A DNA stretch of 41,455 nt from a virus, in the IMG/VR virus record IMGVR_UViG_3300017527_000021, positions 1-41,455 of that record; one strand, 5' to 3'. The notes beneath the pieces are model-generated. The model saw nothing but the letters and a program-made list of their open reading frames with translations, searched no databases and was not told the origin of the DNA. Below, piece by piece: positions 25,577 to 41,124 of the stretch (within the stretch, counting starts at the first letter, position 1; each line of letters opens with the position of its first letter). Position numbers and translations under genes: made by a program.

Positions 25577-25605
25577 TTGACAGAATTTTTAAATCTTACA
25601 ATAAT
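25577..25605 (+). promoter_or_regulatory. Promoter of the replication operon
   Basis: TTGACA at 25577-25582, 17-bp spacer, -10 AATAAT at 25600-25605, followed by GATC (AATAATGATC, matching the window's promoter family). Reads into 25631 onwards and the primase-helicase. Confidence 0.75.
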
Positions 25606-32439: not shown

Positions 32440-32470
32440 AAGCCTGACCTGTAATGGGTTGGGCTTTTTT
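32440..32470 (+). terminator. Terminator after the HNH gene
   Basis: AAGCCTGACC-tgtaatg-GGTTGGGCTT, 10 pairs with two G-U wobbles, followed by a T6 run. Confidence 0.85.
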
Positions 32471-32552
32471 GTGCCTATAATATTGGTACATTTCATGTAT
32501 ATAGATGCTTTTGTCTATTATTCTAGGCAGAATAAAAATTTCAAATAAAAGC

Positions 32553-32610: not shown

Positions 32611-32829
32611 ATGAAAGCACTTGACAAGATATACAGTGACTTAGGCGAACAAGAGTACAGCCTTATTGTTGAGTACAATGATGTTATGGCTCAGATTGAA
32701 GAACAAAAGATTCTGAACGATGGTAATTATGACTTGAATTTACTAGCCAACTCTGTAGCATTAGAGAAAGCAATTAGCCATGTGAAAGATGCTCAAAAAG
32801 AATTAAGAAAATTAGTTGACATAAAGTAA
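32611..32829 (+). CDS. Hypothetical 72-residue protein
   Basis: Starts at ATG 32611 behind CGGAG; an in-frame upstream ATG lies over the -10 element and is rejected. The sequence is acidic and helical (MKALDKIYSDLGEQEYSLIV at the start; NSVALEKAISHVKDAQKELR near the end), with a coiled-coil look. No family recognised. It has its own promoter, and its 3' end overlaps the -35 of the next promoter and one arm of the operator at 32813. Confidence 0.55.
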   Translation: MKALDKIYSDLGEQEYSLIVEYNDVMAQIEEQKILNDGNYDLNLLANSVALEKAISHVKDAQKELRKLVDIK

Positions 32830-32844
32830 TCATTCAACTATATT
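32813..32844 (+). promoter_or_regulatory. Promoter with operator-like inverted repeat, RNA1
   Basis: TTGACA (32816-32821), 17-bp spacer, TATATT (32839-32844). Overlapping both elements is an inverted repeat TAGTTGA (32813-32819) / TCAACTA (32834-32840) with 14 bases between arms; half-site centres are 21 bp apart, two helical turns. The same arrangement recurs at 33044. Predicted start near 32851, exactly at the first base of the RNA1 stem. Confidence 0.75.
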
Positions 32845-32849
32845 AAGAA

Positions 32850-33036
32850 CATGAACTGATGAGTAGGTAAGGTAATTATCGAGAGCAGTTCATTAGCAAG
32901 CCATCAGAGTACGGTGGTAAATCTTGAGGACGCACCCTCTCGTGCTTGCGAAACTTGTGTACAGGTAACTGTGACAGAGCACAGAACGTCCACAGAAAGC
33001 ACGTGGGTAGCGTTGGCGGGGAGACTGTACAGATTT
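32850..33036 (+). ncRNA. Structured non-coding RNA candidate 1
   Basis: No protein fits. Complementary arms: ATGAACTG (32851-32858) with CAGTTCAT (32886-32893); GCAAGC (32896-32901) with GCTTGC (32944-32949); TGTACAG (32958-32964) with CTGTACA (33025-33031), enclosing CTGTG/CACAG (32969-32984) and CCAC/GTGG (32990-33006). A dedicated promoter places the start at the first stem. Short frames in the region cross the stems on both strands, have no Shine-Dalgarno and no family resemblance. The region may reach about 185 nt, ending before the second promoter. I recognise no named RNA family. Confidence 0.6.
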
Positions 33037-33043
33037 AAAATAG

Positions 33044-33075
33044 TAGTTGACAGAAGAGAAACATTCAACTATTAT
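33044..33075 (+). promoter_or_regulatory. Promoter with identical operator-like inverted repeat, RNA2
   Basis: TTGACA (33047-33052), 17-bp spacer, TATTAT (33070-33075). Inverted repeat TAGTTGA (33044-33050) / TCAACTA (33065-33071) with the same 14-base spacing as at 32813, and shared CATTCAACTAT around the -10. Predicted start near 33082. Confidence 0.78.
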
Positions 33076-33081
33076 ACCATT

Positions 33082-33350
33082 GACGACTGGGAGAGTGGTG
33101 TCCGAAACATCCGACTTACTCCACCGAGGGTAAGCCTCCCAGACGCTTCGATTAATATAAGCTGTAGGGTAGCTCAGTGTGAACTTGTTGATGACGACTG
33201 CGACGGTAGTGAGGCAGGTTGCGTAGGGCATAGGTTAAGATGTGAGGGGTCATGAATCCTTACAATACTATCTGTGTCTGAGGCTTAGAGCACTATACGT
33301 GGAGTATGGAGGACACCCTTGAAAGGTCTCTACAGCTTATATTAAACGAC
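33082..33350 (+). ncRNA. Structured non-coding RNA candidate 2
   Basis: Two domains. Domain I: CTGGGAG (33087-33093) with CTCCCAG (33136-33142), enclosing GTGG (33095-33098) with CCAC (33121-33124). Domain II: a perfect 16-bp stem TTAATATAAGCTGTAG (33152-33167) with CTACAGCTTATATT-AA (33330-33345), enclosing 162 bases with several small hairpins (for instance GTGAGG/CCTTAC near 33242-33262 and ATAC/GTAT near 33295-33307). A dedicated promoter lies upstream and tRNA-Ile begins 11 bases after the closing stem. Large ornate RNAs (GOLLD, ROOL) are known beside phage tRNAs; whether this is one cannot be judged by eye. Confidence 0.65.
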
Positions 33351-33355
33351 TTTAG

Positions 33356-33468
33356 ACTGCATATAGCTCAAAGGTCTATAAGGGTGCAAACCTTATAGAA
33401 CTCGGCAGAGGTAGAGCATCCGATTGATAATCGGGAGACTGTAGGTTCGATTCCTACGTGCAGCACCA
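33356..33468 (+). tRNA. tRNA-Ile (GAT) with a hairpin insertion in the D-loop
   Basis: Acceptor ACTGCAT/GTGCAGC (A-C mismatch at the first pair, last pair T-G), D-stem GCTC (33366-33369) with GAGC (33414-33417), anticodon stem TCCGA/TCGGG with loop TTGATAA (anticodon GAT, 33426-33428), variable loop AGACT, T-arm GTAGG-TTCGATT-CCTAC, discriminator A and encoded CCA (33466-33468). The D-loop is 44 nt instead of 7-11 and contains a perfect 9-bp hairpin TCTATAAGG-GTGCAAA-CCTTATAGA (33375-33399). There are three bases between acceptor and D-stem. The 3' two-thirds are canonical; the insertion makes the total 113 nt. Confidence 0.75.
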
Positions 33469-33483
33469 ATAGGAGAGTATTGA

Positions 33484-33666
33484 ATGGCAGATGAATTTAA
33501 ACAAGAAATGACTAGACGTTGTTGTGTAGGTGGGTTACACTGTTGGTGTTGTAATGATTATATGAAGAGTGGTGAGAAGCCGATCTTAAGAAGACAAGCT
33601 CGTAGGAGCTTAAAGCAAGAGACCAAAAAAGAAATTAAAAAGGAACTAAATAATGACGAAACTTGA
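33484..33666 (+). CDS. Hypothetical Cys-rich small protein
   Basis: 60 residues from ATG 33484 behind AGGAGAG, 15 bases after the tRNA-Ile CCA. The N-terminal half contains CCVGGLHCWCC (residues ~13-23), a possible zinc-binding cluster, and the C-terminal half is a strongly basic/acidic helix (RRQARRSLKQETKKEIKKEL). Probably a small nucleic-acid-binding or regulatory protein; no family recognised. Its 3' end overlaps the next gene by 14 bases. Confidence 0.5.
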   Translation: MADEFKQEMTRRCCVGGLHCWCCNDYMKSGEKPILRRQARRSLKQETKKEIKKELNNDET

Positions 33667-33922
33667 AAAAGCTATTGAAAAATTTCTTGAAGGTGTGCAT
33701 AATATAGACCCTGATGCAGAGGTTGCAACAGAGCAGAATTATTACAGAGGTCAGGTTAAAGAAATACCATCTGGTAGACGACTTGATTACACAGGTAAAG
33801 TAGCACAAGACTTGAAAATACAGGTTAGATCAACTAAATTTAGAACCACTTGCACATACGTTGTGTGGGAAAATAGAGGTGGTACTATTGAAGGTTCACA
33901 ACATGGGGTATTAAATATATGA
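33653..33922 (+). CDS. Hypothetical 89-residue protein
   Basis: Starts at ATG 33653 within the end of the previous gene, behind AAGGAAC. The sequence opens TKLEKAIEKFLEGVHNIDPD and closes with VWENRGGTIEGSQHGVLNI; the middle has basic strands (LKIQVRSTKFRTTCTYVV) of the sort found in small alpha/beta proteins. I recognise no domain. The C-terminus overlaps the next gene by four bases (ATGA), so all three genes 33484-34254 are likely one operon. Confidence 0.5.
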   Translation: MTKLEKAIEKFLEGVHNIDPDAEVATEQNYYRGQVKEIPSGRRLDYTGKVAQDLKIQVRSTKFRTTCTYVVWENRGGTIEGSQHGVLNI

Positions 33923-34254
33923 GTTGTCCAGACAAATGTCCAAAATGTGATGCAGCATGGAAGCAAGATGAAACCATCTACGATCACTTTAAAAGAACAT
34001 ACACAGAGGAAGGTGTGCCACACTATAAAGAAGGCATGACTGTTAAAGAAGCAGCAGCAGACTCTGCATCCATGTATGGATGTACGAAAGAGAGTCCTAA
34101 AAGCTTTGGTGTTGATGTAATTGGCATAGAGATACAAGGCATGTATGATGGTGTTCTCTACTGGCAGTGTAAAAAGTGTGAAGGTTACTTGCATCGGTTC
34201 GATGGTACGTGGTACAATGAATTTCCAACAGAGCATAGGAGTCCATACAAATGA
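33919..34254 (+). CDS. Zinc-ribbon protein
   Basis: 111 residues. Two CxxC pairs: C-P-D-K-C-P-K-C at residues ~3-10 and CKKCEGYLHRFDG near residue 89, with an AAW-x-Q segment after the first. Together they make a split zinc ribbon. The central helix (DHFKRTYTEEGVPHYKEG) and acid-base mixture do not reveal a function. It is probably a DNA- or RNA-binding early protein. Ends with a four-base overlap with the ligase start. Confidence 0.55.
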   Translation: MSCPDKCPKCDAAWKQDETIYDHFKRTYTEEGVPHYKEGMTVKEAAADSASMYGCTKESPKSFGVDVIGIEIQGMYDGVLYWQCKKCEGYLHRFDGTWYNEFPTEHRSPYK

Positions 34255-35471
34255 GTCTAGCAACATTGTATAAACCAACATCAAAAGGTAAAGTACGTCA
34301 ATGGAGAGTCTGGTCAGAGGGTAACATTGTCTGGGTGGAATATGGTGACGTTGATGGAAAGCTGACACGTAAGAGTAGTGTTGCTAAGCCTAAGAACGTA
34401 GGCAAGAAAAATGAGACTACTGCACAGCAACAGGCTGTACGGGAAGCACTCTCTAAATGGATTGAGCAATTATGCCGTGAAGACTACCATGAAGATGTGA
34501 ATAAGGCTGGCAAGCAATTACGTCCACAGTTGGCTCTTGATTATAATACAAGTGGTCATCAAGTGCTTTGGGGTAAGCATTCTTACTCAGGTATGCGTAA
34601 GCTTGATGGTGTTCGTTTGGCTTATGCAAAGCGTTATGAAGATGATGCCTCTTATGAGTTCATGACACGTAAAGGTGAGTTGTATAAAGTTGACCACATG
34701 GAAACACCATGCAGTGTTATGTTAGGGCTTGTTAGAGATATACTTGAGAGAGAATACCCTCATGAGTCTTATATTTGTCGTGGTCTAGATGGTGAAGGGT
34801 ATATTCATGGTCTTAAGCTAAACAAAATATTGTCGTTAGTTAAGTCATACAAACCTAAGCCTAGTGCCACAAATCCGTACAAGACTGAAGACGTTGAGTT
34901 TCACTTATTCGATCTATACATTGATGGTCTAACATCTGAAGAGAGGTATTGGATTCTTAATGAGGCAGTAGAGAGCTATAGGTTCTTAAACCCAGACTGT
35001 AAAACAATAAACATTGTCGAAAGTGTTAGCTTAGGTTCTCATGATGAAATGGAAGGCTACCATGATCAGTTTGTCGGTGAAGGTTATGAAGGTATTATCA
35101 TCCGTGATGACCTTGCTATGTACACAGAAGGTAAGCATGCTGGTGTCATGTACAAGTTCAAGAAGTTCTTTGATAGTGAGTTTCAAATCTTCTCTACATG
35201 GGCTGATGAAAATGGTTGTATTATGTTTGATATAATCTTGAAGAAAGGCTTTGTGTTAGGTGATGGAAGTGTGATTCCAGAAGATTGTGTTTGTGGAGCT
35301 ACACCAAAGCTGTCTCACAAAGAGCGTCAAGAGATGATGAAAAAATCAGATACGTACATCAATCAATGGTGGACAGTAAAATATCAAGGCATGTCAGGCG
35401 AAGGTAAACTTGACTTCCCTGTCGCACTTCAAGAGCGTAAGTGTGATTCATTCGGTAACCCTTTGGAGTAA
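34251..35471 (+). CDS. ATP-dependent DNA ligase with WGR-like N-terminus
   Basis: 406 residues. Residues ~1-75 resemble a WGR domain: LYKPTSKGKVRQWRVWSEGN followed by VWVEYGDVDGKLTRKSS. Nucleotidyltransferase motif I, KLDGVR, is at ~116-121 (catalytic Lys 116); motif III is LDGEGYIHG near ~180; motif IV EGYEGIIIRDD near ~276 and motif V YKFKKFF near ~300. The OB-like C-terminal region follows. It seals nicks during phage replication. WGR domains bind DNA ends in PARPs and bacterial ligase fusions; the fused form is a less common phage ligase layout. Confidence 0.85.
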   Translation: MSLATLYKPTSKGKVRQWRVWSEGNIVWVEYGDVDGKLTRKSSVAKPKNVGKKNETTAQQQAVREALSKWIEQLCREDYHEDVNKAGKQLRPQLALDYNTSGHQVLWGKHSYSGMRKLDGVRLAYAKRYEDDASYEFMTRKGELYKVDHMETPCSVMLGLVRDILEREYPHESYICRGLDGEGYIHGLKLNKILSLVKSYKPKPSATNPYKTEDVEFHLFDLYIDGLTSEERYWILNEAVESYRFLNPDCKTINIVESVSLGSHDEMEGYHDQFVGEGYEGIIIRDDLAMYTEGKHAGVMYKFKKFFDSEFQIFSTWADENGCIMFDIILKKGFVLGDGSVIPEDCVCGATPKLSHKERQEMMKKSDTYINQWWTVKYQGMSGEGKLDFPVALQERKCDSFGNPLE

Positions 35472-41077: not shown

Positions 41078-41095
41078 ATGATTTTAGGATACTTG

Positions 41096-41124
41096 TTGAC
41101 ACATGTTAGCGGGTATCCTACTAT
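41096..41124 (+). promoter_or_regulatory. Promoter downstream of the NAMPT gene
   Basis: TTGACA (41096-41101), 17-bp spacer, TACTAT (41119-41124). Lacks the GATC extension of the other family members. Reads into 41178. Confidence 0.6.

Follow-up and report, generated by a model that had tools for sequence, protein, structure and literature searches.

Twin sigma-70-like promoters ahead of a conserved structured RNA and a tRNA-Ile-like gene in a virus genome fragment

We suggest, with a probability of about one half, that the 41,455-base virus fragment analysed here (the window) carries a stable-RNA/tRNA operon headed by twin sigma-70 promoters which are copies of one element; the twin promoters of such an operon are the best-supported core of our interpretation. 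Transcription by host RNA polymerase would begin at about 32851 and 33082, and the resulting transcripts would overlap: both would carry RNA-B, RNA-C and tRNA-Ile, and the one from promoter 1 alone RNA-A as well, with read-through presumably adding the following genes and host processing enzymes presumably cutting the RNAs out. The inverted repeat shared by both promoters would most likely be a by-product of one promoter element having been duplicated. The twin promoters, the RNAs, the tRNA-Ile-like gene and the ORFs that follow it all lie on the plus strand.

Judged by their hexamers, both sites look like strong sigma-70 promoters. Promoter 1 (TTGACA-N17-TATATT, 32816–32844, predicted start ~32851) and promoter 2 (TTGACA-N17-TATTAT, 33047–33075, predicted start ~33082) have hexamers starting at 32816/32839 and 33047/33070, respectively. 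Each matches the sigma-70 consensus at 11 of 12 positions, and the spacer of 17 bp in both lies within the 16–18 bp range. The -35 of promoter 1 sits within the last codons of a 72-aa ORF (32612–32829). Both are overlapped by TAGTTGA-N14-TCAACTA (32813–32840 and 33044–33071), with arms that are perfect 7-mers separated by 14 bases and covering the -35 and the start of the -10, so that inverted half-sites overlap the promoter at both sites, as they would in an operator; at the second site the arms reach 11 bp with one mismatch. The full sequences are TAGTTGACATAAAGTAATCATTCAACTATATT for site 1 (32813–32844) and TAGTTGACAGAAGAGAAACATTCAACTATTAT for site 2 (33044–33075). Promoter 1 is contained in the first copy of a 40-nt direct repeat (32802–32841), to which the second copy (33033–33072) is 78% identical. 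The two promoters, their symmetric arms and predicted starts that coincide with the first predicted stems were all part of the original prediction, and all were found as described. That prediction had also proposed searching the genome for the inverted repeat at 14-base spacing; the whole record contains these two 0-mismatch matches alone, with no third perfect copy, and at up to three mismatches there are five matches against 4.05 expected. A two-mismatch copy with weak hexamers lies at 33809–33836, inside the ORF at 33653–33922.

The idea that the twin promoters head a non-coding RNA is borne out by RNA-C (33148–33349, folding z-score -5.0), which is a real, conserved RNA with compensatory changes. 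It comprises helices P1 (33148–33167/33330–33349), P2 (33182–33188/33214–33220), P3 (33197–33201/33206–33210) and P5 (33293–33298/33304–33309), and came to light through a match of 58 nt to Stenotrophomonas phage Bhz51, then by pattern in a 105-kb phage contig (L007). A model built from the window, Bhz51 and L007 matched those three alone in 64 sources (1.07 Mb). With the Bhz51 copy as query, blastn against 50,697 phage records returned 16 Stenotrophomonas phage records; five further Menderavirus copies bring the set to eight RNA-C sequences, all scoring at least 105 bits, the three used to build the model included. Six distinct rows were aligned over 18 pairs in three helices, of which 96.2% are paired. 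Changes on both sides occur in 7 of the 18 pairs, compared with 2.4 in shuffled alignments (0 of 500 as high) and at most 2 in slid versions, a count biased towards the structure by an alignment that was fitted to it. Four of the six rows lack pairing at one P5 position. P1, which lies outside the model, is paired at 17/17 positions in Bhz51, 8/8 in L007 and 19/20 in the window, with differing sequences. In all seven other cases (Bhz51, the five further Menderaviruses and L007) a tRNA gene stands immediately upstream of the RNA, and the order is reversed in the window, where RNA-C is upstream of the tRNA-Ile-like gene.

RNA-C is apparently undescribed so far as a phage RNA. Rfam release 15 (GOLLD, ROOL and others included) returned only the tRNA at the gathering score and nothing meaningful below threshold. 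A group I intron, tmRNA, RNase P RNA and 6S RNA, considered by their motifs, were rejected, none of them being returned by Rfam. We also rejected the idea that the conserved motif is coding (VDDDCDGS), with an in-frame stop three codons upstream in Bhz51 and changes in P3 that occur in pairs. Searches of open-licence literature on phage tRNA-associated structured RNAs, Menderavirus and T4 stable RNAs turned up no description of RNA-C, and a word search of a Menderavirus article (PMC9025141) gave no mention of a non-coding or structured RNA or of tRNA-Gly.

Searches for further copies of RNA-C covered 41 whole records (five named phages and 36 IMG/VR contigs), of which 39 had been reached as DNA-polymerase relatives and two as RNA-C relatives; the relatives are distant. 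Beyond the two positives already known, only two matches came up, both weak and taken as chance: one in Klebsiella phage 05F01 (17.4 bits), limited to the P5 hairpin without P2-P3 and lying under an annotated small ORF, and one in contig G032 (8.1 bits). Three looser patterns returned seven stretches (L007, which is real, and six that look like chance), 20 stretches (L007 and 19 others) and 38 stretches in bacterial genomes; the 57 new stretches from the last two scored at most 18.4 bits with the model and lacked most of the structure. Long unannotated gaps before the primase gene in vB_CoeS_P1, where the gap looks coding, and in Shewanella phage 1/4, where it is AT-rich, hold no RNA-C.

RNA-A (32851–33037, G+C 0.48) is a non-coding stretch whose folding signal is weak (z -1.2, computed on 32850–33037), and no relative of it was found. 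It is therefore the least certain RNA of the set, given the z-score of -5.0 for RNA-C. The predicted 5' end of transcript 2 is occupied by RNA-B (33079–33146, z -1.9), a GC-rich hairpin. The tRNA-Ile(GAT)-like gene (33357–33468, 32.1 bits in Rfam) has a 34-nt hairpin insertion (33370–33403) in its D arm; ARAGORN misses the gene as it stands but, with the 34 nt removed, identifies it as tRNA-Ile(gat). It could be a broken gene, a processed gene or a tRNA-like RNA. Beyond it are ORFs of 60, 89, 111 and 406 aa (33484–35471), the last of which, at 34251, is a DNA ligase by PHROG. The first ORF begins 15 bases past the tRNA-Ile-like gene, and a terminator scan found no terminator-like site on the plus strand between 32840 and 35977, although that scan is incomplete, having missed an evident hairpin and T run near 32440–32471. 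The short gap and the lack of a terminator-like site make co-transcription of the small ORFs and the ligase likely, so the ORFs from 33484 on are probably transcribed together with the RNAs. The earlier claim of a regulator that controls only the non-coding RNAs finds no support as worded.

As the source of the symmetry we rate common ancestry of the twin promoters about twice as likely as a dedicated operator. Six of the 14 arm bases come from the hexamers in any case (TTGA in the -35, TA in the -10), in line with a by-product. An inverted repeat of at least 7 bp lay anywhere across the promoter in 6.6% of 20,000 simulated promoters, which had a fixed -35 and -10 frame and intergenic base composition, and such repeats were present in 45 of 677 promoter-like sites of the fetched loci (window included, its own sub-loci L003–L006 excluded). 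At this rate a reader of eight promoters would often meet one such repeat, and site 2 is not independent of site 1, because both lie in the direct repeat.

Several observations count against a mere by-product. The exact symmetric geometry of the twin sites arose in only 0.015% of simulated promoters, and the nine differences between the copies all leave the 14 arm bases untouched (P 0.011). Without the hexamers, which would be kept anyway, P is 0.041, and both values come from two copies only. The bases adjoining the arms are kept as well (CA after TTGA, CAT before TCAAC), as is a block CATTCAAC before the -10 that is outside the sigma-70 consensus. Arm conservation is at most a mild hint that the arms may be under selection.

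The leading alternative makes TAGTTGA-N14-TCAACTA the binding site of a dimeric regulator, of phage or host origin, with half-sites 21 bp apart on the same helix face; bound there, the regulator would block or time the polymerase at both promoters. This is possible, if doubtful. It would account for perfect arms lying over the -35 and the start of the -10 at both sites, for arms kept at 14/14 positions against 9/14 in the spacer, and for the difference between the twin sites and those promoters of the phage that end in GATC. Against it, no further perfect copy occurs in the record, no DNA-binding regulator family was recognised among the 16 distinct window ORFs scanned, and the 41 other records at up to two mismatches gave 26 matches compared with 37 for a reversed, equally palindromic control, none of the 26 below two mismatches. 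Recurrence at other promoters or in related phages was therefore not seen in the phage's own record or in these 41 distant ones, and the dedicated dimeric regulator of the original prediction gains nothing from them. An excess of the symmetric form at promoters in general is likewise rejected: TCAA stood at the symmetric position in 3 of 203 promoter-like sites (129 sources, 1.58 Mb, 47 selected loci left out), and all three are in this window. That a dedicated dimeric regulator times an operon with RNA-C as its main product, along with the insertion-bearing tRNA-Ile, appears to us rather unlikely.

Possible further support for an operator comes from 47 viral_contigs stretches with the strict pattern TAGTTGACA-N12-TCAACTATNNT, an uncontrolled number which is not counted as an excess. 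Grouped by flanks, these represent about 10 separate loci, most rows being one locus of related phages. ORF context was read for 14 of the 47, and several of the loci are upstream of protein genes; one precedes a tRNA-Leu-like sequence and one is within coding DNA. One of them (L135/L175) has 8 of 12 spacer bases in common with site 1, and another (L140) has perfect arms of 13 bp; a closer pattern that also required CAT ahead of the right arm gave no matches. In one phage contig (G037/L173), two matches are exact and two have one mismatch; three of these four, together with a two-mismatch one, are copies of one repeated promoter sequence. Some of these copies have lost the right arm and retained the spacer ACTGGGTA, so that the inverted repeat there is incidental.

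Comparison between phages was limited by distance. The window DNA polymerase shares 54–56% identity with its counterparts in vB_CoeS_P1 and Shewanella phage 1/4, no DNA-polymerase relative exceeded 56%, and scans of viral_contigs with two single window proteins found no close relative. Among the DNA-polymerase relatives, promoters lie near the polymerase gene in L046 (3520), L067 (9945), L047 (1697), L048 (2492), L065 (9945), L050 (9944) and L041 (9947), about 55 nt before the gene and further upstream in L047. Their -10 is inside a long inverted repeat, the arms of which change together between phages, often around CTTCGG. In L030 (4566) and L060 (4341) a promoter ending in TATACTGATCC is spanned by GTTGA...TCAAC and precedes a short non-coding stretch rich in TTAAGAGTAnnCTTAA-like palindromes.

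Six other intergenic promoters of the window were chosen by eye from a promoter scan. The claim that all of them end in TATAATGATC is exact for only two, with -35 at 2177 and 32553, while those at 25577, 30013 and 35831 end in AATAATGATC or TATTATGATC, and that at 41096 ends in TACTATACAC and has no GATC ending. Given this last promoter, it was too strong to say that the twin sites differ from all the others. Promoter 41096 lies within an 8-bp inverted repeat of its own (TAGGATAC-N20-GTATCCTA, 41085–41120). GATC directly follows the -10 in five window promoters (2177, 25577, 30013, 32553 and 35831), and it is rarer in the window than expected (109 vs 158.7).

Two further readings of the symmetry are weaker than either shared descent or an operator. 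The repeats might act in RNA, folding as hairpins which mark cut sites flanking RNA-A, with the promoters lying within them. Both hairpins do appear in the predicted fold of 32806–33080, on either side of RNA-A, and the second reaches -9.7 kcal/mol alone; however, the first is weak (-4.6 kcal/mol, 14-nt loop) and absent from the promoter 1 transcript, and near-consensus hexamers at N17 in both copies would be left unexplained, so we consider this improbable. It is highly improbable that the symmetry lets polymerase bind both ways, with site 2 yielding an antisense RNA to RNA-A: the minus strand offers TTGAAT-N17-TAATTT at site 1 and TTGAAT-N17-TACTAT at site 2, but these match the consensus at only 7/12 and 8/12 positions, below the scan threshold of 9/12, and according to PMC10268837, which cites Warman et al. 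2021, bidirectional sigma-70 promoters have starts 7–25 bp apart, mostly 18, compared with ~49 bp between the starts predicted here. Such promoters have symmetric DNA in common with the twin sites, whose spacing and hexamer strength do not fit.

Twin promoters descended from one element thus remain our preferred reading. RNA-C, a conserved stable-RNA candidate, occurs in three phage lineages; its structure can be tested, and the promoter pair would tell when it is made. The symmetry of the promoters matters only if a regulator is demonstrated; were that reading true, the regulator would time an operon of an undescribed RNA common to distant phages.

MexR-type GTTGA inverted repeats have half-sites about 5 bp apart. 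They have the half-site letters GTTGA/TCAAC in common with the twin sites, which however have 14 bp between the arms. Stable RNAs are long-familiar members of phage tRNA clusters. In T4, rnaC and rnaD (the stable species 1 and 2 RNAs, 139 and 119 nt) lie at the end of the tRNA cluster; we know of no role for either. RNA-C resembles them in adjoining phage tRNA genes, but it is ~200 nt long with a long closing stem and, unlike T4 rnaC, does not end in a T-arm-like sequence. The RNA-C model reached at best 7.8 bits in the T4 stretch, outside rnaC/rnaD, giving no sign of relatedness. The likeness to Menderavirus (Stenotrophomonas phages Bhz51, IME-SM1, Moby, Mendera, Ps15, Yut2 and others) is much closer: these phages carry an unannotated RNA-C relative with the same P1-P2-P3-P5 plan and the motif TGATGACGAC, which follows tRNA-Gly, whereas RNA-C of the window precedes its tRNA and stands behind promoters of its own.
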